Shown here: positions 12,778-27,571 of the stretch, piece by piece
Layout of the letters: each line of letters begins with the position of its first letter
Numbering within the stretch: the first letter of the stretch is position 1
NCBI GenBank assembly: GCA_011525805.1
Contig: WYBR01000033.1
Location: 1-64,000 of the forward strand
Origin: Vicinamibacteraceae bacterium
GTDB taxonomy: Bacteria; Planctomycetota; Phycisphaerae; Phycisphaerales; UBA5793
Direction: 5' to 3'
DNA: 64,000 nucleotides
Translations under genes and position numbers: made by a program
Notes under the pieces: generated by a model
Database searches by the model: none
What the model was told of the DNA's origin: nothing
Seen by the model: the letters and a program-made list of their open reading frames with translations, nothing else

Positions 12778-14103
12778 TCAGAGCAGCAGACGCGCCGGAT
12801 TCTCCAGCGAGCCGATGACCTGCTGCATGAACGCCACCTCGTGCCCGCCGTCGGCGATTCGGTGATCGAACGAGTGGCTCAGCGGCAGGATCAGGCGCGG
12901 CTGGAGGACGCCGTCAACGACCCAGGGCATGAGTCGCGTGCGCCCCAGCGCGAGCACGGCGCACTGGCCAGGCGGGATGATCGGCGTGCTGTAGCGGCTG
13001 CCTCCCAGCGCGCCGGGATTCGAGATCGTGTACGTCCCGCCGCGCGTGTCGTTGACGGTGAACTTCGCCTCGCGCGCCTTGGCCGCGAGATCGTTGAGCG
13101 CATCGGCGATCTCCATGATGCCGAGTTGATCGGTGTTGCGGATCACCGGCGTGATCAGGCCGCGCTCGGTGTGAACGCCGACGGCGATGTTGATGTAGCG
13201 GCGGTAGATGATCTGGTCGTGCTCGGCATCGAAGACCGCGTTGAACTCGGGGTGCAGCGTCAGCGCGCGGGCGACCGCGCGGATCACGAACGCAAGCATG
13301 GTGATCTTCCGCTGGCCGTTCTCGGCAGACGGATAGCCGCGGCGGAGGCGGTCGAGGTCGGTGACGTCGGCGTCATCGCTGTCGGTGACGTGGGGGATCG
13401 TCGACCACGACTGGACCATGTTGGCGGCGATGGTTCGGCGCGCCATCGAGTTCTTCTGGCGGCGCACCGGCCCCCAGTTGTCGTGATCCGCCTCGCCGGG
13501 GGCCTCCGCGGGCGCGGCAAAGGGCGCGGAGCGCGGAGGGGCGCTCTGAGGCGAAGACGGCAAGCGCGGAGGGGGCGCCGTCGGCGCCTGGGATGCGGAG
13601 GGGGCTGCGGCCGCGCGTTCGACGTCAGCGCGGGTGATGCGCCCGCCCGGGCCGCTGCCGCGGATCGTCTCGATGTCGAGCCGGAGCTGGCGGGCGAGTT
13701 TGCGCACGGCGGGGGACGCAGGCGCCCGGCGGGCGGGGGGCGAAGCGACGGCGACGCCGCCGTTGCCCGCCACGTTGCGCACGGACGACGACGAAGACGT
13801 CGACATCGCCGCCGGCCGAGAACGTTCGTCCGCCCCGCGGGCTTCAGCGGCCGTGTCGGCGGGCCCGTCGGCGATCGTCACCATGACCTCTCCGACCTTG
13901 ACCGCCTGCCCCTCTTTCACGTGCCACTTCGCGATCGTGCCGGTGAAGGGTGAAGGAATCTCGACGGAGGCTTTGTCGGTCTCGACCTCCATGAGGGGCT
14001 GGTCCTCGCGCACTCTCTCGCCGGCCTTGACCATGAGGCGGACGATCTGCCCTTCGTGGACGCCTTCGCCGAGATCGGGGAGGATGAATTCTTTCGTTGC
14101 CAT
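12778..14103 (-). CDS. Dihydrolipoamide acyltransferase (E2) of a 2-oxoacid dehydrogenase
   Basis: A 441-residue E2 core subunit. Domains in order: one lipoyl domain (1-78) with lipoylated Lys44 in VETDKASVE; an Ala/Ser/Arg-rich linker; a peripheral-subunit-binding domain at about 130-165 (ASPAVRKLARQL...GRITRADVE); and the catalytic CoA-acyltransferase domain ending with the active-site His414 and Asp418 in DHRIADG. The ATG at 14103 (MATKEF) is preferred. An ATG five codons upstream lies in repeat DNA, though its GGTGGTGA could serve as a ribosome-binding site. Acyl specificity is not readable; pyruvate, branched-chain or aryl 2-oxoacids are all possible. Confidence 0.92.
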   Translation of the reverse strand: MATKEFILPDLGEGVHEGQIVRLMVKAGERVREDQPLMEVETDKASVEIPSPFTGTIAKWHVKEGQAVKVGEVMVTIADGPADTAAEARGADERSRPAAMSTSSSSSVRNVAGNGGVAVASPPARRAPASPAVRKLARQLRLDIETIRGSGPGGRITRADVERAAAAPSASQAPTAPPPRLPSSPQSAPPRSAPFAAPAEAPGEADHDNWGPVRRQKNSMARRTIAANMVQSWSTIPHVTDSDDADVTDLDRLRRGYPSAENGQRKITMLAFVIRAVARALTLHPEFNAVFDAEHDQIIYRRYINIAVGVHTERGLITPVIRNTDQLGIMEIADALNDLAAKAREAKFTVNDTRGGTYTISNPGALGGSRYSTPIIPPGQCAVLALGRTRLMPWVVDGVLQPRLILPLSHSFDHRIADGGHEVAFMQQVIGSLENPARLLL

Positions 14104-14116
14104 GGGTCCGTCCGAC

Positions 14117-14160
14117 ATTCACCACCAAGGGCACAAAGGCACAAAAAGGGGCACGAAGGA
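14117..14160. repeat. Half copy of the long inverted repeat
   Basis: ATTCACCACCAAGGGCACAA and following bases match one arm of the elements at 10152 and 12531. No opposing arm is seen. It lies just upstream of the E2 start and can affect start choice. Confidence 0.75.
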
Positions 14161-14180
14161 GGGCTTGGAAAAGGCGCCTT

Positions 14181-14522
14181 TCAGCCTTCTTCTTCAGGAG
14201 AAAGCCCACGCAGGCACTCGACCACGGACGGCAACACCTGTGTAACCGCCTCCCACACCAGTTTCAAGTCAATCTCATCATAAGCGTGAATCAGCCGGTC
14301 GCGCATTCCGGCCATGCCGCTCCACGGGATTCCCGGATTGTCGCGGCGGAAGTCGGGGCTCAGTCGCTTCGCAGCCTCGCCAATCACCATGAGTTGATGA
14401 AGAACGGCCGACTGCTTCTCAGAGTTCGCAGCGAAGAGATCGAAGTCAATGCCCCGGAGATACTCGTCGATCCGCTCGGCGGCTACGAGCATGTCAATGA
14501 TGGACTCCTCATCACGCCGCAT
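14181..14522 (-). CDS. hepT: HepT-like toxin (DUF86 family) of a type VII toxin-antitoxin pair
   Basis: A 113-residue all-alpha protein of the HepT/DUF86 group. The RNase-type signature R-x4-H-x-Y is intact: Arg74, His79 and Tyr81 in RDRLIHAYD. HepT toxins are inactivated when the partner MntA adds AMP to the tyrosine. Its ATG at 14522 overlaps the end of the mntA-like gene by 11 bases, the usual arrangement. The pair sits inside the 2-oxoacid dehydrogenase run, between E1beta and E2, with no functional link to it. Family assignment is strong; toxicity is untested. Confidence 0.88.
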   Translation of the reverse strand: MRRDEESIIDMLVAAERIDEYLRGIDFDLFAANSEKQSAVLHQLMVIGEAAKRLSPDFRRDNPGIPWSGMAGMRDRLIHAYDEIDLKLVWEAVTQVLPSVVECLRGLSPEEEG

Positions 14523-14826
14523 AGAGCAACCTTGCCGTATCGAGGATCTCACGGCGGCGAATCCAGTTCCTGCTTCTCTCAATCCCGGCGCGCGTGACGA
14601 GATCCACCTTGCGGCCCAGCAGTGATCCCAACTCCTGCTCGGCTTCCGCAAGGTCGAAGAGGCTCCGCCGGGCGCTCGGATCAAACGTAACGAGAAGATC
14701 GAGATCGCTCTGCGGCCCGAAGTCGTCTCGAAGGGCCGAGCCGAAGACCTCAAGGCGCACAATGTCCCACTTGCGGCAGAAGGCCGACAGAACGTCGATC
14801 GGGATGCTGCTGAGATCGAAGGCCAT
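14512..14826 (-). CDS. mntA: MntA-like minimal nucleotidyltransferase antitoxin
   Basis: A 104-residue nucleotidyltransferase-fold protein with the active-site pattern G29-S30-x2-R followed by SDLDLLV, where Asp41 and Asp43 are the metal-binding pair. MntA antitoxins inactivate HepT by adding AMP to its tyrosine. The ATG at 14826 (MAFDLSS) is chosen over a TTG at 14853. Its 3' end overlaps the hepT start by 11 bases, so translation is probably coupled. It begins 49 bases after the E1beta stop. Confidence 0.88.
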   Translation of the reverse strand: MAFDLSSIPIDVLSAFCRKWDIVRLEVFGSALRDDFGPQSDLDLLVTFDPSARRSLFDLAEAEQELGSLLGRKVDLVTRAGIERSRNWIRRREILDTARLLYAA

Positions 14827-14875
14827 GCCTTGATGGTCGGATGCGAGGGTCAAGCCCTCAATGCAGTTGACAAAA

Positions 14876-15859
14876 CTACGTCCACGTCATCGTCTCCTTC
14901 ACCGCCGCGACGATTGAATCGCTGTCGGGGAGGTAGTGCTTTTCGACCTGGAAGAAGGGGAAGTGGATGTCGAAGCCCGTCACACGGCGGATGGGGGCGA
15001 GGAGGTACTCGAACGCCTGCTCGTTGAGGCGGGCGATGATCTCAGCGGCCACGCCGCAGGTGCGCGGCCCTTCATGCACAATGACGCAGCGCCCCGTCTT
15101 GCTCACCGATTCGACGAGCGCGATCGTGTCCATCGGCTTGATGGAGAGGAGGTCGATGACCTCGACGTCGACGCCGTGCTCCTGCACGAGATCATCCGCC
15201 GCTTCGAGCACCGGCCGCATCATCGCGCCGTAACCGATGAGCGTGAGGTCGCCGCCGGGCCGCACGACGTGCGCCTTGCCGATCTCCATGACCTCCGGCT
15301 CTTCGCTCACTTCCTCGCGGAAGGCGCGGTAGACGGCCTTGGGCTCGTAGAAGATGACTGGGTCGGGGTCAGCGATGGCCGCGGCGAGCAGGGCGCGGGC
15401 GTTGCGCGGGCCGGAGGGGATGACGACCTTGAGGCCGGGCGTATGCGCCCAGTAGGCTTCGCGCGACTCGCTGTGATGCTCGACAGCGCGGATGCCCCCG
15501 CCGTAGGGCGCCCGCATCACCATCGAGATCGGGTAGCGGTGGCGCGTACGGTTGCGGTAGCGGGCCATGTTCTGCTCGATCTGGTCGAAGGCCTGCATGG
15601 TGAATCCGGAGAACTGGATCTCGGCGACGGGCCGCAGGCCGTAAACCGCCATGCCGACGGCGGTGCCGATGATGGCGTTCTCGGCCAGGGGCGTGTCGAT
15701 GACGCGCTCGGGTCCGAAGCGGTCGAGCAGCCCCTTGGTGACGCGGAACACGCCGCCGTTGACGCCGACGTCCTCGCCCATGACGCAGACGCGATCGTCG
15801 GCGGCCATGGACTCGCCCAGCGCCAGGTTGAGGGCCTCGACCATTGTCAGTTGCGGCAT
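14876..15859 (-). CDS. 2-oxoacid dehydrogenase E1 component, beta subunit
   Basis: A 327-residue transketolase-type beta subunit of the alpha2beta2 E1 family, which pairs with E1alpha to decarboxylate a 2-oxoacid on thiamine diphosphate. Recognisable segments are VMGEDVGVNGGVFRVTKGL, DTPLAENAIIG, GLRPVAEIQF, and PIRRVTGFD near the end. Length matches the family. The ATG at 15859 (MPQLTMVEALN) has GAGGATG upstream; longer frames translate REP sequence. It follows E1alpha, separated by 106 bases holding two REPs. Confidence 0.93.
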   Translation of the reverse strand: MPQLTMVEALNLALGESMAADDRVCVMGEDVGVNGGVFRVTKGLLDRFGPERVIDTPLAENAIIGTAVGMAVYGLRPVAEIQFSGFTMQAFDQIEQNMARYRNRTRHRYPISMVMRAPYGGGIRAVEHHSESREAYWAHTPGLKVVIPSGPRNARALLAAAIADPDPVIFYEPKAVYRAFREEVSEEPEVMEIGKAHVVRPGGDLTLIGYGAMMRPVLEAADDLVQEHGVDVEVIDLLSIKPMDTIALVESVSKTGRCVIVHEGPRTCGVAAEIIARLNEQAFEYLLAPIRRVTGFDIHFPFFQVEKHYLPDSDSIVAAVKETMTWT

Positions 15860-15888
15860 GACCGGATCATCCTCATTGATGCCCCACG

Positions 15889-15916
15889 CCCACGATGAGG
15901 CTTTGCGAATCGTGGG
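15889..15916. repeat. REP class 1 palindrome
   Basis: CCCACGAT / ATCGTGGG around GAGGCTTTGCGA (centre variant), between E1alpha and E1beta. Confidence 0.85.
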
Positions 15917-15931
15917 GTGCACTCCCCCGCG

Positions 15932-15981
15932 GCGCGCTCCGCTGCGCAAAGCCTCCGCGTCGCGGCTAACCAGTTCCGCGC
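15932..15981 (-). repeat. REP class 2 copy extending into the E1alpha 3' end
   Basis: On the minus strand it reads GCGCGGAACTGGTTAGCCGC, GACGCGG, AGGCTTTGCGCAG. Its first bases encode the last residues Arg-Gly-Thr-Gly and the TAG stop of E1alpha. Confidence 0.8.
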
Positions 15982-17135
15982 TCCTCTACGCCCTTGCGTT
16001 TCAGTCGCTCCATGTACTCCGCCTTCTGCCCTTGCAGGTCGGCGGGAAGTTGTTCGTAGACGAAGTCGAAGATCTCCTTCGGCCGGGCGATGGCGCGCTG
16101 CCGGAAGGTCTCGCGCGCGGCGAGAACTTCCTGCTCGATCTCCTCGCCGAGGCGCGCGATCGCTTCATCATCAAGAAGATCGCGGGCCTTGAGGTAGTTC
16201 TCAAAGCGCCGGATCGGGCACTTGCCCTCCCACGCCTTGACCTCCTCCTCCTTGCGGTACACCTTGGGATCGTCCGCGGTCGTGTGCAGGCTCATGCGGT
16301 AGGTGACGGCCTCGACGAGATAGGGCCCGGCGCCACGGCGCGCGTGGTCGATGGCGCAACTGCAGGCGGCGATCATGCCGAGAACGTCGTTGCCGTCGAC
16401 GCGCACGGCCGGCAGGCCGAAGCCCACGCCGCGCGCGGCCAGCACCGGATTGCCGCACTGCCTTTCGATCGGCGTCGAAATCGCCCAGCCGTTGCTCTCG
16501 ACGATGAAGATGATCGGGGCCTTGTAGACGGCGGCGAAGTTGAAGGACTCGGCCACGATGCCCTGCGAGGACGCCCCATCGCCGAAGTTGGTCACGACGA
16601 CGCTGTCGTCCTTGCGGTTGCGAATGCCCATCGCAACGCCCGTCGCCACCGGCACGTGCGCGCCGATGACGATGGAAAATGGCAGGTCGTTGACGCCCTC
16701 GGGAATGCCGAAGCCCTCGAAGTAGCCGGCCCACAGCAGAAGGAGTTGATCCATCGACCAGCCGCGCCACACCTGTGCGCCGATCGAGCGGTAGGACGGA
16801 GCATACCAGTCGCGGCTGGTCATGGGGTAGACCTGGCCGATCTGCGTCGCTTCCTGGCCGAGGCCGGGGGCAAACGTGCCCATCTCGCCCTGCCGCTGCA
16901 TGGCGAGCATGCGCAGGTCAAGGCGGCGCGACCGCACCATGCCGCGGTAGATGCGGAGCAGTTCGCTCTCGGGAAGGTTGGGTTCGAGGTCGCTGTTGAC
17001 GACTTCGCCCTGCTCATCGAGGACGCGGATCACTTCGATCGAGCCGAGGTCGATCGAGCCGTCGGCCCTGCTCTCAATGCGCACAGGGGGCGTGCGCGAG
17101 GCGGCGGCGGCGGAGGTGGCGGAGCGCGGCGACAT
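15966..17135 (-). CDS. 2-oxoacid dehydrogenase E1 component, alpha subunit
   Basis: A 389-residue thiamine-diphosphate-dependent alpha subunit. The cofactor motif starts GDGASSQG and ends about 27 residues later with the Asn in VESNGWAIS. The loop MSLHTTADDP contains the conserved HTTADDP-type segment typical of branched-chain and Gram-positive-type E1alpha. The first 35 residues are Ser/Ala-rich. The last four residues and the stop are encoded by REP sequence. It is first in the E1-E2-E3 run and directly downstream of the paa genes. The natural 2-oxoacid is not determined; phenylpyruvate is proposed from context only. Confidence 0.92.
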   Translation of the reverse strand: MSPRSATSAAAASRTPPVRIESRADGSIDLGSIEVIRVLDEQGEVVNSDLEPNLPESELLRIYRGMVRSRRLDLRMLAMQRQGEMGTFAPGLGQEATQIGQVYPMTSRDWYAPSYRSIGAQVWRGWSMDQLLLLWAGYFEGFGIPEGVNDLPFSIVIGAHVPVATGVAMGIRNRKDDSVVVTNFGDGASSQGIVAESFNFAAVYKAPIIFIVESNGWAISTPIERQCGNPVLAARGVGFGLPAVRVDGNDVLGMIAACSCAIDHARRGAGPYLVEAVTYRMSLHTTADDPKVYRKEEEVKAWEGKCPIRRFENYLKARDLLDDEAIARLGEEIEQEVLAARETFRQRAIARPKEIFDFVYEQLPADLQGQKAEYMERLKRKGVEERGTG

Positions 17136-17668: not shown

Positions 17669-18184
17669 TCACACGCGCTTGAGATGCTCAAAGGAGTTGC
17701 GGCAGGCGTCGCAGTAGTAGATCATGCGGCAGCGTGTCGGGCCGAAGGGGCTTTCGCGGCGCGTCTTTGTCGAGCCGCAGAAAGGGCAGGGAACCGCGGC
17801 GGCGCCGACGGTGAGCGCGACGGTCGCAGAGCCATGCACCTCAAGGCGATTGCCATGCGGCGGAACCGTCACGCCGTGTGCGCGCAGCGACTCGCGGCCG
17901 GCGGCGCTGATGCGATCGACGGACCACGGCGGGTCGTTCACCCACTGCACCCTAACCGACCCGACCCCCGGCAGCGCGCCGACGCGATCTTCAATATCGC
18001 GGCGGATCATGTCCAGGGCCGGGCAGCCGACGAAAGTCGGCAGCGCGACGACGCGGACCGCGCTCTGATCGCCCGAGGGCGCTACCTCGACCGACTCGAT
18101 CAAGCCGAGATCGACGATGCTGATGGGCATCTCCGGATCGGGAATGGTGCGCAGGACATCCATGATGGAGCGGCGGTCGATCAT
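17669..18184 (-). CDS. paaD: PaaD, maturation protein for phenylacetyl-CoA epoxidase
   Basis: A 171-residue protein with an N-terminal MIP18/DUF59 domain (PDPEMPISIVDLGLI, then FVGCPALDMI) and a C-terminal zinc-ribbon-like segment with CPFC, a single Cys in GPTRCRM and CDAC. PaaD is thought to help assemble the iron-sulfur cluster of the epoxidase reductase. The ATG at 18184 is five bases past the paaC stop, giving the expected coupled order. It is the last recognised gene of the epoxidase block. The reductase gene paaE is not present next to it or elsewhere in the window. Confidence 0.93.
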   Translation of the reverse strand: MIDRRSIMDVLRTIPDPEMPISIVDLGLIESVEVAPSGDQSAVRVVALPTFVGCPALDMIRRDIEDRVGALPGVGSVRVQWVNDPPWSVDRISAAGRESLRAHGVTVPPHGNRLEVHGSATVALTVGAAAVPCPFCGSTKTRRESPFGPTRCRMIYYCDACRNSFEHLKRV

Positions 18185-18189
18185 GCGAT

Positions 18190-18969
18190 TCACCAGGCGG
18201 CGTCGGGCTCGAGACGGTAGACCTCGCACATCTCATCGAGCATGGGGGCGAGGTGGACGGTGTGCACGCCGCGCCGGCCGCCGCGCTCCTCGGGATTGAA
18301 GTCGTCGAGGCGCGCGCTCAGATGGCCCCGGCCGAGCACGTGCTCGACGGCGGCGCGCCAGGCGTCGTACATCTCAAGGTCGTCACCGGGATAGAGGCCG
18401 GCGGCGACGAGTTGGTCCTGCCTCTCAACCGGCTCGAAGAGTTGCGGCGCGATGCGCGCGAGCGCCTCGATCGCCTGCTGGATGCGGCGGTGGGACTCGG
18501 GCGTGCCGGAGCCGAGGCGCATCGTCCAATCGTCCACGTGCTGCACGTGCGCCTGCTGCTCGGCGGCGAGTCGGCGGGCGAGGTCGGCCAGCGGCTTGTA
18601 CACCGACATCGAGAGGCGCGTGAGGCGAAGCACGTCGAAGTGGTTGCAGAACAGGCGCCGCGCCATCGCCGTCGCCCAGTCAAACTCGTCGGGCACTTCG
18701 ACGATCGCGGCGCAGCGGTATTCGCCGGGGGCGCGGCCGAAGGCGAGTTGATCGGCGCTGCGCCCGTCGATCGCGCCCGCGAGTTCGTAGAGGGCTGAGG
18801 CGTGCGCCATCTCATCCTGCGCGAGGGCGGAGAACGCGATGTCCTCTTCGAGAATCGGCCCGAGGCCCGTCCATTCGCTGTTGCGATGGCCGAGGAAGAG
18901 TTTGTCATCCGCGGCGGCGAGCAGGAGGTTGATGAAGGGCTTTTTCAGGTGTTCGGGCAGTTCGGGCAT
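18190..18969 (-). CDS. paaC: 1,2-phenylacetyl-CoA epoxidase structural subunit PaaC
   Basis: A 259-residue ferritin-fold subunit that partners PaaA in the epoxidase. Visible: LGHRNSEWTG, the helix with QDEMAHASALY, FDWATAMARRLFCNHFD, and AEQQAHVQHVDDW. PaaC is structural in known complexes. The ATG at 18969 (MPELPEHL) is used; the longer frame adds only four residues. It follows paaB after a perfect 14-bp inverted repeat and precedes paaD by five bases. Confidence 0.94.
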   Translation of the reverse strand: MPELPEHLKKPFINLLLAAADDKLFLGHRNSEWTGLGPILEEDIAFSALAQDEMAHASALYELAGAIDGRSADQLAFGRAPGEYRCAAIVEVPDEFDWATAMARRLFCNHFDVLRLTRLSMSVYKPLADLARRLAAEQQAHVQHVDDWTMRLGSGTPESHRRIQQAIEALARIAPQLFEPVERQDQLVAAGLYPGDDLEMYDAWRAAVEHVLGRGHLSARLDDFNPEERGGRRGVHTVHLAPMLDEMCEVYRLEPDAAW

Positions 18970-19005
18970 GGCGGCTCTTCGCAAGACTCAAGTGTCATTC
19001 GCGCC

Positions 19006-19043: not shown

Positions 19044-19643
19044 TCAGAATGCTTCCTTCAGATCTTCCCTTTCGTATTCGCGCAGGGCGCTTTCGTCGCG
19101 GAAGCGCGTCCACTTCTCGCGCACTTCCTTGCTGTAGCCGCGCGCGAGGCGGTAGGACTGGTCGCTGAAGCGCCAGATGAGATCGCCCTTGCTCGTGGCG
19201 GCGATGATGCGCTGCGGCACGACCCAGAGGGTGTAGTACTTCTTCGGGTCGCGGTGAATCTCCCTGGCCTTTTCGATCGCTTCGGCCGGGGAGCGGGCCT
19301 GCACGGTCTCGGCGGAGACGTGCCCGGCGCCGCGCCTGGCCTGCACGAAGACCTGATAGGGCTGCATCCCGCCGACGTCCTGGCTGGCGGGGTGGATCGA
19401 GTCGGTGCCCGAGACCATCTCGACGGGGATCGCCCAGATGCCGACGCACTCCTGGTCCTGACCGTAGTGCTCGCGGGCGAAGATCAGGGCCATGTCATCG
19501 TCGGCGGCGTCGAGGCAGCCGGCGTAGAGAAACGGCTGACCGGCCTTCAACTGGGTAAAGATGACGTAGCCGGCGAGATCGCCCTCGGGCGGCGTTTCGA
19601 GGTCGCCGCTGGTCAATTCAACGTCATCGCGGAGTTTGGACAT
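19044..19643 (-). CDS. paaB: PaaB, tandemly duplicated form
   Basis: A 199-residue protein, twice the roughly 95 residues of Escherichia coli PaaB. Two PaaB-like units are spaced 70 residues apart: YVIFTQLKAG (26-35) against YQVFVQARRG (96-105), and GIWAIPVEMV (68-77) against TLWVVPQRII (138-147). PaaB bridges PaaAC dimers in the epoxidase complex. The second unit, with ARSPAEAIEKARE and a conserved tail to about 165, looks more canonical. It lies between paaA (15-base gap) and paaC. Family is certain; the consequence of the duplication for complex shape is inference. Confidence 0.9.
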   Translation of the reverse strand: MSKLRDDVELTSGDLETPPEGDLAGYVIFTQLKAGQPFLYAGCLDAADDDMALIFAREHYGQDQECVGIWAIPVEMVSGTDSIHPASQDVGGMQPYQVFVQARRGAGHVSAETVQARSPAEAIEKAREIHRDPKKYYTLWVVPQRIIAATSKGDLIWRFSDQSYRLARGYSKEVREKWTRFRDESALREYEREDLKEAF

Positions 19644-19658
19644 CGATCCCTCCCGAGA

Positions 19659-20681
19659 TTACGCGGCCGGGGGCAGCGCGGTGGACCCACTGAGAACCGC
19701 CTGTCGCACCCACCGCCCCTGCTCATACGAAAGCCTCCGCAACGCGAGGCGCTTGGCGTTGCACGGCCCGTTGCCGCGGATCACGCGGAAGAACTCATCC
19801 CAGTCGGGCTGGGTGAACTCCCAGTGCCCCGTCGCCTTGTTGAGAGCGATCTTCTCATCGGGGCGCCTGCTCGTCACGTAGCCGCGCTCGTCCTTCTCGA
19901 CGACGTGGATCTTCAGGCCGAGGTCGAGGGCCGCGGGGACGAATCGATCGACGAATCGCTGGCGGAGTTCATCGTTGGTCACGGTCTTCATGCGCCAGCG
20001 CATGGGCGGCAACTGGTGCGCGTTGGGCTTGTCGGGCGGGCCGAAGAACATCAGCGACGGCCCCCACCAGCGGTCAAACGCGTCCTGGGCCAGTTGCTTC
20101 TGCCGTTCCGTGCCGCTCATGAGCGTAAGGACCATGTCCTCGCCGCTCTTGAAGTGAAACGCTTCCTCCATGTTGATGCGGCGCATGGTGCGGACGTAGG
20201 GGCCGTAGCCTCCGTCGGCGAGCGTCTTCTGGTTCATGATCGCGGCCCCGTCGATGAGCCACTGGATCATGGCGATGTCGCCCCACGTCGGGGCCGGGTA
20301 GTTGAAGCAGTTGTGGTACTTGGTCTTGCCGGTGATGAGGTCGCGGAGCATGGCATCGCGCGTCTTGCCGAGATCCTGCGAGACGCGATAAAGCATCTGC
20401 CCGTGGCCGACCTCGTCCTGGACCTTGGCGGTCAGCGCGAGTTTGCGGCGAAGCGACGGGGCGCGGGTGATCCACTCGCCCTCGGGCAGGGCGCCAATGA
20501 TTTCGCTGTTGGCGTGGTGCTCGGCCATCATGAGCATGCCCTTGCGGTAGGCCGCGGGCATCCAGTCATCGGCCTCGATGAGTTGTCCGGCGTCGATCTT
20601 GGCCTGGAACTCGGCGAGAAGCGCGGGGTCTTCCGGCTGTTCGTGATCGACGTGAACTCCGACGTTGGCGCTGCCTGACAT
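19659..20681 (-). CDS. paaA: 1,2-phenylacetyl-CoA epoxidase catalytic subunit PaaA
   Basis: A 340-residue di-iron oxygenase subunit that epoxidises the aromatic ring of phenylacetyl-CoA. The ferritin-like metal ligands are visible: Glu60 region, E90-VG-H93 in QDEVGHG, and E173-AF-H176 in MEEAFHF. The C-terminal NGPCNAKRL region is typical. The ATG at 20681 has AAGGA seven bases upstream. It heads the tight block paaA-paaB-paaC-paaD. Confidence 0.96.
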   Translation of the reverse strand: MSGSANVGVHVDHEQPEDPALLAEFQAKIDAGQLIEADDWMPAAYRKGMLMMAEHHANSEIIGALPEGEWITRAPSLRRKLALTAKVQDEVGHGQMLYRVSQDLGKTRDAMLRDLITGKTKYHNCFNYPAPTWGDIAMIQWLIDGAAIMNQKTLADGGYGPYVRTMRRINMEEAFHFKSGEDMVLTLMSGTERQKQLAQDAFDRWWGPSLMFFGPPDKPNAHQLPPMRWRMKTVTNDELRQRFVDRFVPAALDLGLKIHVVEKDERGYVTSRRPDEKIALNKATGHWEFTQPDWDEFFRVIRGNGPCNAKRLALRRLSYEQGRWVRQAVLSGSTALPPAA

Positions 20682-20697
20682 GGTGGGTCCTTGAGAG

Positions 20698-20726
20698 TAG
20701 GCACTAGGCACTGGGCATTAGGCACT
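20698..20726. repeat. Short tandem TAGGCACT repeat
   Basis: TAGGCAC recurs three to four times with small changes (one unit reads TGGGCAT), just upstream of paaA. Confidence 0.6.
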
Positions 20727-20818: not shown

Positions 20819-20856
20819 GCGCTCCCCTTCGCGGAGCCTTCGGGTCGCGGCTAAAC
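20819..20856 (-). repeat. REP class 2 copy supplying the paaJ stop codon
   Basis: On the minus strand GTTTAGCCGCGACCCGAAGG, CTCCGCGAAGGGGAGCGC. The TAG in GTTTAG terminates paaJ. Confidence 0.8.
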
Positions 20857-22059
20857 GTTGCCCTCGATGATCGTCGCGACTCCCTGGCCGACGCCGACGC
20901 AGAGGGTCGCCAATCCGAGTTTCGCCTTCGTTCGCCTCATTTCGTGAACGAGCGTCGTGACGAGCCGCGCGCCGGAGCAGCCCAGCGGGTGTCCCATGGC
21001 GATCGCGCCGCCGTTAGGATTCACGTTGGCCGCTTCGAGTCCCAGCAGCCGCAGGACCGCGAGGCTCTGGGCGGCGAAGGCCTCGTTCAGTTCGATGATA
21101 TCGAGACTTGCCGCCGTCTTTCCGCTGCGCCGCAGCACTTTTTCCGTCGCCGGCATGGGGCCGACGCCCATGCACGCGGGATCGACGCCGGCGCTGGCGC
21201 TCGGCCCGACGAACGCGAGCGGCCGCAGGCCGAGTTGTTTGGCGCGATCCGCCTCGACGAGCAGCACGGCCGCGGCGCCGTCGTTGATGCCCGAGGAGTT
21301 GCCCGCCGTCACCGAGCCCTTGTCATCTTTCGCGAAGGCGGGGCGGAGGCCGGCGAGCGCTTCGAGCGTCGTATCCGGGCGCGGGTGCTCATCGACCTTC
21401 ACGACCACAGGCGGCCCCTTGCGCTGCGGAATCTCGACGGGGATGATCTCCTCGTCCCACTTGCCCGCCGCGTGCGCTGCCGCCCACTTGCGCTGGCTGG
21501 CGAGGGCGAAGCGGTCCTGGTCGGCGCGGCTGATCTCGTACTTGCGCGCGACGTTCTCCGCGGTCTCGCCCATTGAATAGGGATGATGCAGTTTCGCGAG
21601 TTTCGGATTGGTGAAGCGCCAGCCGATCGTGGTGTCGAAGACTTCGGGCGGGGTGCGGTCCCACGCCGCCTGCGGTTTGCCGAAGACGAAGGGGGCCCGG
21701 CTCATGGACTCCACTCCGCCGGCGATCATGACATCTCCCGCCCCGCTCTCGATCATCCTCGCGGCGACATTGATGGCGTCGAGGCCCGAAGAGCAGAGGC
21801 GGTTGATGGTGCAGCCGGCGACGGTTTCGGGCAGGCCGGCGAGCAAAGCGGCCATGCGCGCGACGTTGCGGTTGTCTTCGCCCGCCTGGTTCGCGTCGCC
21901 GAAGTAGACCTCTTCGATGAGAGCCGGATCGATCTTCGAGCGCGCGACGACGGCGGCGATGACCAGCGCCGCGAGATCGTCAGGCCGGACCGGGGCGAGC
22001 GCCCCGCCGTAGCGCCCGATGGGCGTGCGGACCGCGTCGATGATGGCGACTCTTCGCAT
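20851..22059 (-). CDS. paaJ: 3-oxoadipyl-CoA/3-oxo-5,6-dehydrosuberyl-CoA thiolase
   Basis: A 402-residue thiolase performing the last cleavages of the phenylacetate pathway to acetyl-CoA and succinyl-CoA. The acyl-enzyme Cys89 lies in NRLCSSGLDA, the His in GGAIAMGHPLGCSGA, and the second Cys near 387 in LCVGVGQG. GGVESMSRAP is also typical. The ATG at 22059 begins MRRVAIIDAVRTPIGR; the longer frame is repeat-derived. Its Val-stop end is inside a REP. It is downstream of paaH. Assignment to PaaJ rather than a general thiolase rests on context. Confidence 0.9.
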   Translation of the reverse strand: MRRVAIIDAVRTPIGRYGGALAPVRPDDLAALVIAAVVARSKIDPALIEEVYFGDANQAGEDNRNVARMAALLAGLPETVAGCTINRLCSSGLDAINVAARMIESGAGDVMIAGGVESMSRAPFVFGKPQAAWDRTPPEVFDTTIGWRFTNPKLAKLHHPYSMGETAENVARKYEISRADQDRFALASQRKWAAAHAAGKWDEEIIPVEIPQRKGPPVVVKVDEHPRPDTTLEALAGLRPAFAKDDKGSVTAGNSSGINDGAAAVLLVEADRAKQLGLRPLAFVGPSASAGVDPACMGVGPMPATEKVLRRSGKTAASLDIIELNEAFAAQSLAVLRLLGLEAANVNPNGGAIAMGHPLGCSGARLVTTLVHEMRRTKAKLGLATLCVGVGQGVATIIEGNV

Positions 22060-22110
22060 GGCGGATGATAGCAAAAGTTGCGCGGGATCGAGGCGGTCAA
22101 TTCTGACAGC

Positions 22111-22218
22111 GGGTGGCATGGCCTGGCGCTTCGCCTGGCTATGCCCAACGGGCAGGTGTGCTCGGTCGCCCTTGCCGCGAGGGCATAGCGACGCGAAGCG
22201 CGACGCCACGCCACACCC
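22111..22218. repeat. Cruciform-type repeat, copy 1
   Basis: It begins GGGTGGCATGGCCTGGCG and ends CGCCACGCCACACCC. The left arm carries CTGGCGCTTCGCCTGG, the right arm the variant GCGACGCGAAGCGCGACG. Each arm can fold alone or pair with the other. It fills the paaH-paaJ gap. Confidence 0.7.
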
Positions 22219-22236: not shown

Positions 22237-23457
22237 TCATCCTGCGACCTCTGCCAGCGGCGCGAGGCGGTAACGATCGGAGCCGCTGGATGCGGCGAGG
22301 GCGGCAAGCCACTGGTCGCAGAGGTCCGGTCCGATCAACCGCATCCACTCGAAGGGGCCGCGCGGGTAGTTCACGCCATAGCGCATCGCGGTGTCGATGT
22401 CCTCTCGCTGGGCCACGCCGCGGCGGCAGGCCATCGCCGCCTGCGCGAAGATGCAGACAAGAATGCGCGCGAAGATGTAGTTCTGGAGATCGCTGCCGGG
22501 TTTGACGGCCCCGCGCTGCGCAATGCGGGCGACGAGGTCGCGCTCCGCCCCGGTCAACTCGATCGGCCGGCGCTCGACCTCGATCGCGGGGGCGGGCGGC
22601 TCGACGGCGTAGTCGTAACAGCCGCGCTTGGCCTTGCGCCCGAGATGACCGGCGGCGACGATTCGCTCCTGAAGGGCGCTGGGTTCGAGCAGCGCCGGCC
22701 GGCCGAGTTGCTCCCAGACCGATCGCGCGGCGGCGGTGTTGATGTCCATGCCGATGAGATCGGCGAGTTCGAGCGGTCCCATGCGAAAGCCGCCGACGTC
22801 GCGCATCGCCGCGTCGATCTCCTCGACGGCGGCGTGTCCCGCTTCGAGAATCCGGAAGGCTTCGAGGTAGTACGGCCGTGCGACGTGGTTGACGATGAAG
22901 CCGGGCGAATCGCTGGCGCGGGCGACGACCTTGCCCCACTGCTGCGCGATCTGGGCCACGCGATCGACCGCCGCCGCATCGCTTCGCTCGCCCGCGATGA
23001 CCTCGACGAGTTTCATGAGCGGCGCGGGGTTGAAGAAGTGCATCCCGACGAGGCGCTGCGGCTGGCCCACCGCCTCGCCGAGTGTCGTCACCGAGAGCGA
23101 GGAGGTGTTGGTGGCGAGAATCGCATCAGGGCGGAGGGAGGGGAGCAGTTCGCGGAAGGCGGCGGCCTTGACGTCGAGGCGCTCGACGATTGCTTCAATG
23201 ATGAGTTCGCAGTCGCCCAGGCAATCGGGGCACCGGGCGAGGCACAGGCGCGACTCGGCATCATCACGCTCCTCGGGGGTGAGGCGGCCCTTCTCGGCGA
23301 GTTGATCGAGGCGGCGGACGATGGAGTCAACGGCGCGGCGCGCGGTGGGCTCATCGACCTCGCGCAACTCGACCATCCAGCCGTGCATCGCGGCCACCTG
23401 CGCGATGCCGGCGCCCATCGTCCCGCCGCCGAGGATGCCGACGGTGCTGGTGTGCAT
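22237..23457 (-). CDS. paaH: 3-hydroxyadipyl-CoA dehydrogenase
   Basis: A 406-residue 3-hydroxyacyl-CoA dehydrogenase. The NAD fold GILGGGTMGAG (7-17) starts the protein, His140 in GMHFFNPAP is catalytic, and SPGFIVNHVARPYYLEA begins the first C-terminal domain (about 185-285). A second, shorter copy of the C-terminal domain follows (about 310-400, with FARILVCIFAQAA and YGVNYPRGPFEW), as in PaaH proteins. It is shorter than the roughly 475 residues of the E. coli enzyme. The ATG at 23457 is used. It lies between paaG and paaJ on the same strand. Confidence 0.9.
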   Translation of the reverse strand: MHTSTVGILGGGTMGAGIAQVAAMHGWMVELREVDEPTARRAVDSIVRRLDQLAEKGRLTPEERDDAESRLCLARCPDCLGDCELIIEAIVERLDVKAAAFRELLPSLRPDAILATNTSSLSVTTLGEAVGQPQRLVGMHFFNPAPLMKLVEVIAGERSDAAAVDRVAQIAQQWGKVVARASDSPGFIVNHVARPYYLEAFRILEAGHAAVEEIDAAMRDVGGFRMGPLELADLIGMDINTAAARSVWEQLGRPALLEPSALQERIVAAGHLGRKAKRGCYDYAVEPPAPAIEVERRPIELTGAERDLVARIAQRGAVKPGSDLQNYIFARILVCIFAQAAMACRRGVAQREDIDTAMRYGVNYPRGPFEWMRLIGPDLCDQWLAALAASSGSDRYRLAPLAEVAG

Positions 23458-23493
23458 GACGTGTTCTCCGCGCGATCGGCGCGTTGGCCCGGA

Positions 23494-23542
23494 CGCGCTC
23501 GGCTCCGAGACCATCGCGTCGCGGCTAAAACGGTTCCGCGCT
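23494..23542 (-). repeat. REP class 2 copy directly after the paaG stop
   Basis: A degenerate copy: AGCGCGGAACCGTTTTAGCC, GCGACGCG, then a decayed centre GTCTCGGAGCC. It abuts the paaG TGA. Confidence 0.65.
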
Positions 23543-24361
23543 TCACTTGCCGGTGAAGACGGGCTTGCGCTTTTCGATGAAGGCGACGACGCCTTCGTAA
23601 TGGTCGGCGGTCATGCCCGCGGTCTCCTGCGCGAAGGCCTCGGCGACGAGTTGCTCGTCGAGGGTGCGCTCGAAAGTGCGGCGAAGGAGTTGTTTGGTGA
23701 GCGCGAGGCCGCGGGCGGGCAGCGAGGCGAGTCGGGCGGCAAACGTCTGCGCCGCCGCCATCAGTTCGCCGGCGGGGACGACCTGGTTGACCAGGCCGAT
23801 GCGCAGCGCTTCCTCCGCATCGACCTTGCGGCCGGTGCAGCACAGTTCCATCGCCCGGCCGAGGCCGACGAGGCGCGGCAGGAAGAAGGTGCTGGCGGAA
23901 TCGGGGATCAACCCGACGTTGATGAAGACCTCGATGAAGGTCGCCTGATCCGAGGCGACGCGCACGTCGCAGGCGAGGGCGAGGCTGCACCCGGCCCCGG
24001 CCGCGACGCCGTTGACGGCTGCGATGATCGGCTTGTCCATCTCCGCGATCTTCCTGATGATCGGGTCGTAGCGGCGGCGCAGGTCGTCGCCGAGGTGCGG
24101 GACGTGGCCGGGCACGTACTTCTTCTTCAGGTCGCCCAGGTCCTGGCCGCTGCTGAACGCCTTGCCGGCGCCGGTGAGGATGACGACGCGCACTGCGGCA
24201 TCGCGCTCCGCATCCTTCAGGGCGGCGAGGAGTTCCTTCGACAGCGGATCGTTGAACGCGTTGAAGACGTCGGGCCGATTGAGCGTGATGGTCGCAACGT
24301 GGTTGGCGACGTCGTACTGGATCGTTTCATACGTCGGTGCGGCGGCGGCGGTGGTAGTCAT
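23543..24361 (-). CDS. paaG: 1,2-epoxyphenylacetyl-CoA isomerase
   Basis: A 272-residue crotonase-fold enzyme that converts the ring epoxide to oxepin-CoA. The PaaG-type catalytic Asp154 is seen in GLIPDSASTFFLPRL, while positions for the hydratase glutamates are not conserved. The oxyanion-hole segments are AFSSGQDLGD and GVAAGAGCSLALA. The ATG at 24361 has a strong GGGAG site seven bases upstream. It lies just downstream of the RAYT insertion. Confidence 0.9.
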   Translation of the reverse strand: MTTTAAAAPTYETIQYDVANHVATITLNRPDVFNAFNDPLSKELLAALKDAERDAAVRVVILTGAGKAFSSGQDLGDLKKKYVPGHVPHLGDDLRRRYDPIIRKIAEMDKPIIAAVNGVAAGAGCSLALACDVRVASDQATFIEVFINVGLIPDSASTFFLPRLVGLGRAMELCCTGRKVDAEEALRIGLVNQVVPAGELMAAAQTFAARLASLPARGLALTKQLLRRTFERTLDEQLVAEAFAQETAGMTADHYEGVVAFIEKRKPVFTGK

Positions 24362-24392
24362 TGGATTCTCCCGATTGCAGCGGTGCATTCAT

Positions 24393-24445: not shown

Positions 24446-25036
24446 TCACGGGTATGGTATGACGAACTTCCACGCCTGCGCCTTCTTGCCCTCGCGCAAC
24501 GGGTTCTCCTGCACGTACCGGATCGCCCTCACGATATCCCGCGGAGGGTTCAGGAACACCTTCCACTCGCCGCGCGTCCACATCTTTGGCAGACGGCGGG
24601 ATTCCGTCGGGAAACCGGCGAGGGGATGAGTTCCTTCCTCCGCAACCTTGCGCGTGGCTGCGCCCTTGAGCAGATTGGCGATGGCCTCGACCTTGAGGCG
24701 GTGCCGGGCGATCACCATGTGGACGTGTTCGGGCATGATGGAGCAGGCGTGGACGACGAGTCGGTGTTTGACAACGGTGTCCGCGAAACCTTGAGCGATG
24801 GCCCGAGCCTGGACGCCGTTGAACACCACGGGCGGGCGCTTCATCGCTGACTTCGCCGCGAGGCGGAGGTTGCGATCGTGCGGATCGTGCGCCAGCGAGC
24901 GGCGCTGCGTCGTCTTTGTCGCCTGGCCGAAACGGCGGAGTTCCCACGCGCCGACGAAGTCGGACCACGAGCCGCGGGGGTCGTTGGGGAGCCAGAAGCC
25001 GTAGGCGTTGAGGATGAGGTGGGAGGCGAGGACCAT
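24446..25036 (-). CDS. REP-associated tyrosine transposase (RAYT, Y1/HUH family)
   Basis: A 196-residue single-domain transposase of the IS200-like Y1 group. The HUH metal motif is His104-Val-His106 in MPEHVHMVIA, and the probable nucleophile is Tyr174 in AIRYVQENP. RAYTs are domesticated single-copy transposases that act on REP hairpins. The gene is bounded by 38-bp inverted copies of REP class 2, and sits between paaF and paaG in the operon direction. Motif residues are intact, so it may be active. The start ATG at 25036 has AAGGA about 12 bases upstream. Confidence 0.88.
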   Translation of the reverse strand: MVLASHLILNAYGFWLPNDPRGSWSDFVGAWELRRFGQATKTTQRRSLAHDPHDRNLRLAAKSAMKRPPVVFNGVQARAIAQGFADTVVKHRLVVHACSIMPEHVHMVIARHRLKVEAIANLLKGAATRKVAEEGTHPLAGFPTESRRLPKMWTRGEWKVFLNPPRDIVRAIRYVQENPLREGKKAQAWKFVIPYP

Positions 25037-25070: not shown

Positions 25071-25119
25071 GCGCTCCCCTGCGCAGAGCCTTCGGGTCGC
25101 GGCTAAACAGTTCCGCGCT
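25071..25119 (-). repeat. REP class 2, right inverted copy flanking the RAYT gene
   Basis: Minus-strand reading: AGCGCGGAACTGTTTAGCCG, CGACCCGAAGGCTCTGCGCA, GGGGAGCGC. It starts at the paaF stop codon (TAA at 25119-25121) and is inverted relative to 24393-24436. Confidence 0.85.
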
Positions 25120-25898
25120 TACTTGCCTTTGAACGTCGGCTTGCGCTTTTCGACGAAGGCGCGCATGCCTTCTTTCTGGTCCTCGGTGGCGAAGAGCATG
25201 TAGAAGAGTTTGCGTTCGAACTCGAGTCCTTCCGAGAGGGGCGTCTCGAAGGCCTTGAGGACGCCTTCCTTGGCGAAGCGGAGGGCGATGGGGCCTTTCG
25301 AGGCGATGGCGTGGGCCACCTTGACCGCCTCGGCAAAGAAGTGCTCTTTGGGCACGACGCGGCTCACCAGGCCGTGATCGAGCGCTTCCTGCGCGCTAAG
25401 GAATCGTCCGCTGAGGATGACGTCCATGGCGAGCGCCTTGCCGAGCGCGCGGGGGAGGCGCTGCGTGCCGCCGGCGCCGGGCATGACGCCGATGTTGATT
25501 TCCGGCTGGCCGAACTGGGCCGTCTCCGACGCGATGACCACGTCGCAGTGCATCATGAGTTCGCACCCGCCTCCGAGGCACCACCCGCTCACCGCCGCGA
25601 CGATGGGCTTCTTGACGCGCTTGATGCGCTCCCACGTGGCGAACTGGTCGCGCTCGTACATGCTCACGACCGACTGCTCGGCCATGTCGCCGATGTCCGC
25701 TCCCGCGGCCCACGCCTTTTCACTCCCCGAGAGGACGATGACGTAGATGCCCGGATCCTTGTCGTAGGTCTCCATCTGCGCAGCGAGCGCCGCCATAAGT
25801 TCGGGATTGAGCGCGTTGAGCACCTTGGGGCGGTTGAGGCGGATGATGCCGACGTGGCCGTCGGTCTCGGCGAGAATCAGCGACTCTTCGTGGCTCAT
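25119..25898 (-). CDS. paaF: 2,3-dehydroadipyl-CoA hydratase (enoyl-CoA hydratase)
   Basis: A 259-residue crotonase-family hydratase. The two catalytic glutamates are present: Glu113 in GGGCELMMHCD and Glu133 in GQPEINIGVMPGAGG, as in true enoyl-CoA hydratases. The C-terminal FVEKRKPTFKGK is typical. Its ATG at 25898 overlaps the stop of the thioesterase gene as ATGA, so the two are translationally coupled. The PaaF role is assigned from context; a general fatty-acid hydratase is the alternative. Confidence 0.88.
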   Translation of the reverse strand: MSHEESLILAETDGHVGIIRLNRPKVLNALNPELMAALAAQMETYDKDPGIYVIVLSGSEKAWAAGADIGDMAEQSVVSMYERDQFATWERIKRVKKPIVAAVSGWCLGGGCELMMHCDVVIASETAQFGQPEINIGVMPGAGGTQRLPRALGKALAMDVILSGRFLSAQEALDHGLVSRVVPKEHFFAEAVKVAHAIASKGPIALRFAKEGVLKAFETPLSEGLEFERKLFYMLFATEDQKEGMRAFVEKRKPTFKGK

Positions 25899-26332
25899 GG
25901 ATCGTTCCGTTCCGATGTGGCGCTTGGGCGGGATTCGCGTTCGATGAGGGCGGCGAGTTTGGCCCGCGGCAGGATGCGCTGCACCTGCCGCCCGCGCCCG
26001 ACCACCTTCTCCCCATCCGGGCGGACATGATATGCGGTCACCTCGCACACCAGCGTCGTCGGATCGAGTTCGACGGCCACCGCCTCGACGCGCACGGTGC
26101 GTCCGACGGGCGTCGGCGCGAGGTGGTCGATCGAGAGGTGCGAGCCGATGCCCTCCTCGTGCGCCTCGAGATGGGGCATGAGAACCTTGCGGGCGGCGAT
26201 CTCCATGTGGTGCGCCATCGACCAGGTTGAGTAGACGCGATGGACCACGTCGCCGTCGAAGGCGGGGCACATGTCTTCGGTGACGGTGATGATGACCTCG
26301 GCGCGGGCGCCGACCTGCAGTTCGGGCTTCAT
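25895..26332 (-). CDS. Hotdog-fold thioesterase family protein
   Basis: A 145-residue protein resembling the FlK/fluoroacetyl-CoA thioesterase type of hotdog fold. It begins MKPELQVGARAEVIITVTED and carries YSTWSMAHHMEIAAR, EGIGSHLSIDHLAPTPVG and a VTAYHVRPDGEKVVGRG strand pair. It probably hydrolyses a CoA ester formed in this pathway, filling the role that PaaI has elsewhere, although the sequence is not of the PaaI type. Start and stop are consistent with the ATGA overlap with paaF. Confidence 0.75.
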   Translation of the reverse strand: MKPELQVGARAEVIITVTEDMCPAFDGDVVHRVYSTWSMAHHMEIAARKVLMPHLEAHEEGIGSHLSIDHLAPTPVGRTVRVEAVAVELDPTTLVCEVTAYHVRPDGEKVVGRGRQVQRILPRAKLAALIERESRPSATSERNDP

Positions 26333-26356
26333 CGGGGGAGTTTATGCTGGGACCAC

Positions 26357-26384
26357 CCCACGATTCGCAGAGCCTCATCGTGGG
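26357..26384. repeat. REP class 1 palindrome
   Basis: CCCACGAT / ATCGTGGG around TCGCAGAGCCTC, between the aminotransferase and thioesterase genes. Confidence 0.85.
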
Positions 26385-26398
26385 CGTGGGTTGAGTTC

Positions 26399-27571
26399 TT
26401 ACTTCATCAGCGCCGCGAGGACTTCAAGCCCCTTCGCCAGCCGCGCATCATCGACGGCGTAACTGATGCGGATATGCGTGTCGCGCTGCGAGAAGATGTT
26501 TCCGGGGATGACGAGGACGTTGCGCTCGAGGGCCTTGCGGAAAAAGGCGTCGCCGCTCAGGCCGAGACGCGGCGGCACCTGCGGGAAGGCGTAGAACGCG
26601 CCGGCGGGATGAGCCAGTTCCGTCAGGCCGCCCAGCGCCTCGACCACCATGTCGCGCTTGCGCTCGTAGGCCGCGACGTACGCCGACATGTCGGTGCGCA
26701 GCGCGACGACGCCGGCGTGCTGGACCATGTGCGGCGCGCAGACGAAGGAATACTGGTTGACCTTGGTCATCTCGCGGATGAGGCGGGAAGGCCCGACTGC
26801 ATAGCCGAGGCGCCAGCCGGTCATGCCCCACGTCTTGCTGAAGCCGCGCAGGATGAGGCACTGGCTCGTGAAGCGGCCGGGCGTTGGAAACACGCCGTCC
26901 TCGCGGCCGTCGGCGTAGGTGAACTCGTCGTAGATCTCGTCGCTCAGGAGCATTACGCCGCGCGACTCGCACAGATCGACGATGTCGCGCAACTCGTCGC
27001 TGCCGAGCACAACCCCCGACGGGTTGCCCGGCGAGTTGAGCACGATGAACCTCGTGCGGTCTGTGATGAGCGGTTCGAGGCGCGCGGCCGTCATGCGGAA
27101 GTCGGGATAGGTGCCGCAGAACACGGCCCGGGCGCCGGCGACGACGGCCACCTGCGGGTAGGAGACGAAATACGGATCGGGAATGATGATCTCATCGCCC
27201 GGCTCGGCGAGCGCGAGGTAAGCGAGCAGCAGCCCGGCGCTCGTGCCGTTGGTGATCATCACGTCGCACTCGCGCTCCGGGCCGATCTCCCAGCCGAGTT
27301 CGGCGGAGAGTTTGTCCGCGACGGCGGCGCGGAGTTCGGGAATGCCCTGCGTGATCGTGTAGCCGTTGCGCCCGGCGCGGATGGCGTCGATGGCGGCCTG
27401 CTTGATCGGCTCGGGCACGTCGAAGTCGGGCTGGCCGATCGAGAAGTTGACCGGATCCTTCATCTTCGCGGCAAGTTCGAAGACGCGGCGGATGCCCGAA
27501 GGCTCCATCGCCTCCATCCGATCGGTCAGCAATGCCTCGATGTCGATCATCGCGCGTCCGGGAGTGGTCAT
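26399..27571 (-). CDS. Class I/II PLP-dependent aminotransferase
   Basis: A 390-residue fold-type I aminotransferase of the aspartate/aromatic group. Visible: YTITQGIPELR (71-81), TNGTSAGLLLA, NSPGNPSG (179-186), LLSDEIYDEF, and the PLP lysine Lys246 in RGFSKTWGMTGWRLGY. The C-terminal Arg in HIRISYA binds the substrate carboxylate. It sits upstream of the paa genes on the same strand, which makes an aromatic amino acid such as phenylalanine a plausible substrate. Specificity cannot be read from the sequence. Confidence 0.88.
   Translation of the reverse strand: MTTPGRAMIDIEALLTDRMEAMEPSGIRRVFELAAKMKDPVNFSIGQPDFDVPEPIKQAAIDAIRAGRNGYTITQGIPELRAAVADKLSAELGWEIGPERECDVMITNGTSAGLLLAYLALAEPGDEIIIPDPYFVSYPQVAVVAGARAVFCGTYPDFRMTAARLEPLITDRTRFIVLNSPGNPSGVVLGSDELRDIVDLCESRGVMLLSDEIYDEFTYADGREDGVFPTPGRFTSQCLILRGFSKTWGMTGWRLGYAVGPSRLIREMTKVNQYSFVCAPHMVQHAGVVALRTDMSAYVAAYERKRDMVVEALGGLTELAHPAGAFYAFPQVPPRLGLSGDAFFRKALERNVLVIPGNIFSQRDTHIRISYAVDDARLAKGLEVLAALMK

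Follow-up and report, generated by a model that had tools for sequence, protein, structure and literature searches.

Tandem PaaB with two cores and one tail is a conserved and recurrent variant of the phenylacetyl-CoA epoxidase bridge subunit

The 64-kb window, by which we mean the whole stretch of DNA analyzed here, carries a paa gene cluster in the order paaA-B-C-D (Table 1). The gene of interest starts 15 bases after paaA and is followed downstream by paaC and then paaD, thereby occupying the place between paaA and paaC that is expected of a PaaB gene. PaaA and PaaC score above the equivalog cut-offs of their models, as expected for the epoxidase, and each is encoded as a single copy in the source genome. 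The lysine bridge of PaaA is composed of Glu49, Lys68, Glu72, and Asp126 according to the accessible part of PMC4498308, and all four residues are present in the PaaA of the window when aligned to E. coli PaaA.

Table 1. Coordinates of the tandem paaB gene, the parts of its product, and the neighboring genes in the 64-kb window
Feature	Position	Strand	Evidence or remark
tandem paaB, core-core-tail	19044-19643	(-)	ATG start, 199 aa; Pfam/TIGR profiles, core HMM, AlphaFold2 model
N core, residues 25-80, helix signature kept	19404-19571	(-)	core HMM 75.0 bits; strand-strand-helix-strand 24-73
helix signature AREHYGQDQEC, residues 56-66, inside N core	19446-19478	(-)	signature pattern match
inter-core linker, residues 81-94	19362-19403	(-)	
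C core, residues 95-150, helix signature lost	19194-19361	(-)	core HMM 42.5 bits; Z 8.4 vs 4iit_B and 3egr_A over 91-152
C-terminal tail, single, residues 151-199 (DQSYRLARGY...), D-x-x-Y-R motif and helical extension	19047-19193	(-)	
paaA, catalytic subunit	19659-20711	(-)	TIGR02156 396.9 bits, cut-off 280; lysine-bridge residues kept
paaC, structural subunit	18190-18984	(-)	TIGR02158 217.6 bits, cut-off 133.35
paaD	17669-18229	(-)	TIGR02159 145.9 bits, cut-off 108.15
paaJ-like thiolase	20851-22209	(-)	best model 3-oxoadipyl-CoA thiolase, 576.2 bits, cut-off 605
paaH-like 3-hydroxyacyl-CoA dehydrogenase	22237-23514	(-)	PaaH model 380.4 bits, below cut-off 669.4
paaG-like isomerase	23543-24388	(-)	TIGR02280 275.7 bits, below cut-off 345.15
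paaF-like enoyl-CoA hydratase, ORF residues 165-419	25119-26378	(-)	PaaF model 315.1 bits, below cut-off 371
2-oxoacid dehydrogenase genes (E1 alpha 15966-17135, E1 beta 14876-15949, E2 12778-14118)	12778-17135	(-)	downstream of paaD

The E1 alpha gene of the 2-oxoacid dehydrogenase was found in 33 of the 48 related loci, some of which are incomplete. An aminotransferase is encoded upstream of the paa genes at 26399-27571, and the PaaK and PaaZ models remained below their cut-offs in the source genome (166.5 against 646.3 bits and 102.5 against 562.8 bits, respectively). With no PaaK above the cut-off, the 2-oxoacid dehydrogenase and the aminotransferase next to the paa genes suggest a route from phenylalanine through phenylpyruvate to phenylacetyl-CoA. 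In Deinococcus psychrotolerans, paaA has a comparable E1/E2 set at a distance of about 8 to 12 kb. Two small ORFs are inserted in the operon of the window between E1 beta and E2 (14181-14853), which we take to resemble a nucleotidyltransferase and HEPN pair, and the ORF between paaG and paaF (24446-25036) presumably resembles a REP-type transposase. At a number of other Phycisphaerae loci (L026, L027, L028, L062, L063, L064, L067, and L068), no paaA or no paaC was detected next to paaB where it would be expected; these clusters seem to be rearranged, cut short, or too divergent.

The 199-residue protein matches the Pfam family PF06243 (PaaB) in two stretches with 69.7 bits, above the gathering cut-off of 27. 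TIGR02157 also matches in two stretches, with 63.4 bits below its equivalog cut-off of 85.45; judged by these profiles, the tandem PaaB is a member of the wider PF06243 family and not of the TIGR02157 equivalog as modelled. A core HMM trained on 27 single-core PaaBs, without any tandem, identified two cores spaced by 70 residues with the scores given in Table 1, on a scale where E. coli PaaB reaches 88.2 bits. When each half was shuffled 1000 times, the best scores were 5.2 bits for the N half and 8.7 bits for the C half, with 551 and 858 of the shuffled sequences, respectively, reported by the core HMM at all. In the alignment with canonical PaaB, the duplicated part is the core of about 55 residues alone, with its strand-strand-helix-strand elements, and a single tail with the D-x-x-Y-R motif follows the C core. 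Duplication of the PaaB core within the gene, between core and tail, has resulted in two cores and one tail. The sequence-only reading, in which two PaaB units 70 residues apart are fused, was borne out for the two cores and their spacing by Pfam, the core HMM, and the structure model, but the units are not complete ones and the tail is single. Two full PaaB units are ruled out, as the tail pattern was found once in 38 of 40 tandems, was unmatched in the other two, and occurred twice in none. A frameshift or a fusion by assembly is ruled out by the same open frame in many contigs and several lineages. An N-terminal stretch and a C-terminal helical stretch are common to the compared Phycisphaerae PaaBs, tandem or single, whereas canonical PaaBs are without both. 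The single-core Phycisphaerae PaaBs (128-145 aa, e.g., L055) thus share both extensions and mostly the same operon with the tandem proteins but are without the second core.

The AlphaFold2 model of the tandem PaaB has a mean pLDDT of 79.1 and a pTM of 0.65, in which the strand-strand-helix-strand order appears twice, at residues 24-73 and 94-143, with block pLDDT of 83-96. The C core superimposes on the solved PaaB chains 4iit_B and 3egr_A with r.m.s.d. between 1.9 and 2.0 Å over 61 residues, at the Z-score given in Table 1. The doubt had been raised that the first 80 residues might model as something other than a PaaB fold. The order of the elements and a related single-core Phycisphaerae protein (Z 8.8 against 4iit_B, on a poor model with pLDDT 60.1) favor the PaaB fold, with no PDB PaaB chain among the structural matches listed for the N core itself. 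Foldseek alone returned no match for the tandem PaaB at E 0.001, the best being 3egr_B at 0.023. The structural searches also matched a large-subunit ribosomal protein, presumably eL20, which we read as probably reflecting a shared common fold and not kinship. Full-length PaaB consists of 95-96 residues, whereas only 63 are present in the solved chains (aligned range 4-65), so that the tail is absent from the known complex structure.

How widespread this form might be had been left as a question, and the family search shows that it is common among PaaB-bearing Phycisphaerae and occurs in haloarchaea and Deinococcus as well. PaaB was detected in 8 of 61 related genomes, all 8 with two matches in one frame. 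Eleven genomes in a phylum sample of 392 have a PaaB match: six are tandem, all from the source genome's own order, four are single canonical PaaBs (115-149 bits), and one is a weak match below the cut-off. A pattern scan over the genomes of 84,980 species identified 48 loci, all Planctomycetota by title, comprising 32 complete tandem genes, 13 single-core genes with the same flanks, and three genes truncated at contig ends, of which two extend into a second core; the scan patterns were taken from the Phycisphaerae N core and reach close kin only, and 32 versus 13 is therefore not an unbiased ratio. L043, L056, and L066 (contig ends) and L007 (tandem) were left out of the core counts below. 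Tandem proteins of 174-177 aa are encoded between paaA and paaC on haloarchaeal plasmids of Natrinema zhouii, Haloarcula sinaiiensis, Halorubrum ezzemoulense, and Halorubrum sp. PV6, and the seven other haloarchaeal proteins examined, including those of Haloferax and Natrinema pallidum, have one core each. Tandems are also encoded on plasmids of D. psychrotolerans, with 197 aa, and of Deinococcus sp. QL22, with 180 aa, and Pfam matches two stretches in each; the core HMM scores their second cores weakly, at 16.2 bits (E 1.8e-6) and 7.2 bits (E 0.0012) in a four-protein search. A canonical PaaB query on plasmids matched 171 records in one place each, but decayed second cores would escape such a query, and its result is therefore no evidence against tandems in these records. 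Because the same lopsided fusion is found in haloarchaea and Deinococcus, the tandem PaaB is a recurrent redesign and not a one-genome oddity.

The decay has the same polarity in all three lineages: the N core keeps the helix signature, and the C core is without it. This signature is ARDVYTRR-like in canonical PaaB, AREHYGQDQ-like in Phycisphaerae, and QHGRR-like in haloarchaea. Its pattern was found in 38/38 N cores and 0/38 C cores of 34 Phycisphaerae and 4 haloarchaeal tandems, and once in each of the 34 tandem and 13 single Phycisphaerae proteins; both Deinococcus tandems carry it once, in the N core, and their C cores have lost it. With three independent lineages, equal polarity alone would be expected by chance one time in four. 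The helix columns conserved in the single-core proteins of the same lineage are kept at 359/408 positions in the N cores but at 110/408 in the C cores of Phycisphaerae, and at 39/40 versus 11/40 in haloarchaea, where L071 was excluded from the reference set. The N cores are also less diverged, with mean pairwise identities of 0.54 versus 0.35 for the C cores in Phycisphaerae and 0.86 versus 0.52 in haloarchaea. Outside the helix, the C cores of Phycisphaerae keep conserved columns about as well as the N cores (88/102 versus 67/102 for the first strand). A clean complementary decay, with the helix preserved in the N core and the hairpin in the C core, is seen in two of the four haloarchaeal proteins but not across the Phycisphaerae at large.

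The tandem PaaB is thus a real, conserved, and recurrent variant of a known subunit. It has in common with canonical PaaB (PF06243, TIGR02157; the bridge of 1,2-phenylacetyl-CoA epoxidase, 3EGR and 4IIT) the core fold, the position relative to paaA and paaC, and the D-x-x-Y-R tail motif, but holds two cores in one chain with one tail and the signature only in the N core, and it stays below the TIGR02157 cut-off. The haloarchaeal proteins show the same core-core-tail layout, with the helix kept in the N core and lost in the C core, but have haloarchaeal core and tail sequences without the N-terminal extension, most simply explained by an independent duplication. The Deinococcus proteins (180-197 aa), also located between paaA and paaC, again share the core-core-tail layout with the signature in the N core only, but differ in the weak second core and in the company of their PaaA and PaaC, which group with those of canonical bacteria (SH-aLRT 99 in a quick tree).

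We compared PaaA+PaaC trees from the 57 of 65 loci that have both paaA and paaC on the expected side and no more than 9 kb away from paaB; the quick tree was also calculated without L037, L051, and L071. The haloarchaeal tandems form one clade (100/100) amid haloarchaeal singles, far from the Phycisphaerae tandems. For PaaA+PaaC, a single clade of all tandem owners is ruled out (p-AU 5e-77 for the three lineages together), as is pairwise joining of the tandem lineages (p-AU 5e-46, 4e-64, and 4e-12), in tests with 36 rows chosen from 61, on a quick tree, and with groups named after the first trees had been seen. Because the PaaA+PaaC trees reject one clade of tandem owners, the tandem likely has at least two origins, most simply three. 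The core tree, too short at 55 columns to decide between one and several origins of the second core, accommodates all C cores as one clade (p-AU 0.483), so that the tandem may instead be ancient and have lost its C core repeatedly. Against such an ancient tandem, the C-core hairpins of the haloarchaeal L070 and L073 share identities of 0.68-0.70 with haloarchaeal singles, versus 0.39-0.42 with others; those of L074 and L075, also from haloarchaea, show no preference for haloarchaeal singles. The N-core helix is 0.73 identical to singles of its own lineage in haloarchaea and 0.66 in Phycisphaerae, versus 0.29-0.34 to other groups. Among the Phycisphaerae, the trees place the singles L053-L055, L057, L059, and L060 within tandem groups at moderate support, suggesting loss of the second core. 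The Phycisphaerae trees involve 2 to 4 changes of the tandem label, and gains and losses are consequently not exactly countable.

The reductase PaaE, which would be expected of the epoxidase, gave no match to TIGR02160 at E 0.001 in the source genome (97% complete, 138 contigs), where PaaABCD are present. The PaaE query likewise found no match in the window or in the 48 Phycisphaerae loci (29 of them with flanks longer than 5 kb at each end), in 11 haloarchaeal loci with flanks of 3-5 kb, or in the Deinococcus loci with flanks of up to 15 kb. Several haloarchaeal records do name a 'paaE' of about 55 codons, which went unmatched by the reductase query; this label agrees with a haloarchaeal PaaE model of 56 positions whose match in the window is to the zinc-ribbon end of PaaD. 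Since single-core loci of the same lineages are also without PaaE, its absence is tied to the lineage and not to the duplication as such. The tandem proteins point to a form of the epoxidase without PaaE.

In Klebsiella, a PaaB dimer joins two PaaAC pairs, according to the accessible part of PMC4498308. The reported stoichiometries, as far as the accessible texts give them, differ between 2:2:2 in the crystal and A2B3-4C2E1 by gel. The fused PaaB pair of the sequence-only reading is supported, here in a paaA-B-C-D operon, and so is the PaaB dimer as the known bridge, as described in PMC4498308; its proposal of one chain per bridge is not supported in that form, since it assumed two equivalent cores, where the C cores are without the signature and the tail is single. 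We favor, at about an even chance, a different arrangement, a one-chain pseudo-dimer with a single docking face and about one PaaAC per chain. The two cores would pack like the two chains of a normal PaaB dimer. The N core with its intact helix, aided by the tail that follows the C core, would be the sole face for docking PaaAC, and the C core would serve as a structural mate. The expected complex would contain one PaaA, one PaaC, and one tandem PaaB, i.e., one half of the standard heterohexamer. A single such face on each chain would follow from the C cores being without the helix signature and from the presence of only one tail, and the signature would be part of this face. Because the helix is kept, in each lineage, in the core without its own tail, the helix and the tail of different protomers might cooperate in the ordinary PaaB dimer. 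As PaaA and PaaC are each encoded once in the source genome, there is no alternative PaaAC for the C core to accommodate. Several observations count against this one-sided arrangement. The signature is present in 28 of 29 singles, and the exception, the divergent haloarchaeal single-core PaaB L071, implies that it is not strictly required. The hairpin histidine, found in 27/27 singles, is not cleanly split between the cores: it is present in 18/34 N cores and 27/34 C cores of Phycisphaerae (in both cores of 15 proteins and in neither of 4), and in 0/4 N cores and 2/4 C cores of haloarchaea. The good conservation of C-core columns outside the helix in Phycisphaerae also counts against it. In addition, the tail, to which a docking role is given, is modelled at low confidence (block pLDDT 50-68), and pairing of tandem chains through their N cores would still be conceivable.

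A covalent PaaB dimer, in which each core binds one PaaAC pair (2:2:1) with one chain per bridge, might be suggested by the Klebsiella PaaB dimer located between two PaaAC pairs (accessible part of PMC4498308), by the PaaB element order in both cores, and by the first-strand columns kept in the C cores too. However, the lopsided decay of the aligned cores argues against one chain bridging two PaaAC pairs via two equal cores: the signature is missing from every one of the 38 C cores and lost in both Deinococcus C cores, even though both cores would face the same single-copy PaaA and PaaC, and there is only one tail. We therefore regard this arrangement as unlikely. It seems quite unlikely that the N cores of two tandem chains dimerize as in ordinary PaaB, with the C core being an added, non-essential domain fixed by a neutral ratchet. 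The lower conservation of the C cores (mean identity 0.35) and the singles nested among tandems in the PaaA+PaaC tree, from which the C core appears to be losable, would fit such a ratchet, but in Phycisphaerae two clades with good support, comprising 11 and 10 sampled loci, consist of tandems throughout, where singles might be under-sampled by the start from a tandem alignment, and more than one lineage probably evolved the tandem. Improbable, too, is that the C core was recruited to bind a different partner, for example an electron donor in place of PaaE. Although no PaaE model match was found in the source genome or in the flanks of other tandem paaB genes, compared with 7 of 10 canonical loci having PaaE (the flanks of the other three, L018-L020, span only about 1.5 kb), the flanks of single-core loci from Phycisphaerae and haloarchaea are also without PaaE, and no newly conserved C-core patch common to the lineages was seen by eye.

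More speculatively still, and to be regarded as improbable, the symmetric PaaB dimer might have become a single-chain, one-sided adaptor on at least three occasions across two domains of life, always with the same polarity and always in lineages with a PaaE-less paa cluster; the second core, thus freed, would interact with an altered electron-transfer partner in a half-size asymmetric epoxidase. To our knowledge, the reason for having two PaaAC pairs around the PaaB dimer is not settled. With the natural tandems and their single-core sisters from similar operons, the need for both PaaAC pairs and for both PaaB faces can be tested directly.

We found no mention of a two-core PaaB in the literature on PaaB and phenylacetyl-CoA epoxidase, including the accessible parts of PMC4498308, PMC13186573, PMC9493321, PMC2653477, and PMC2225504, the primary PaaABC structure report being outside the search. 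In public records, the haloarchaeal and Deinococcus tandems are not labelled as PaaB: two haloarchaeal records give 'PacF protein' (e.g., WP_004966593.1), and the Deinococcus tandems are called 'phenylacetic acid degradation protein'. A full-text literature search combining PacF, phenylacetic acid, and archaea returned no paper. Tandem PaaBs under such other names are easily missed. The tandem paaB of Natrinema zhouii (L070, 4989-5519) is an open frame absent from the gene table of its plasmid.
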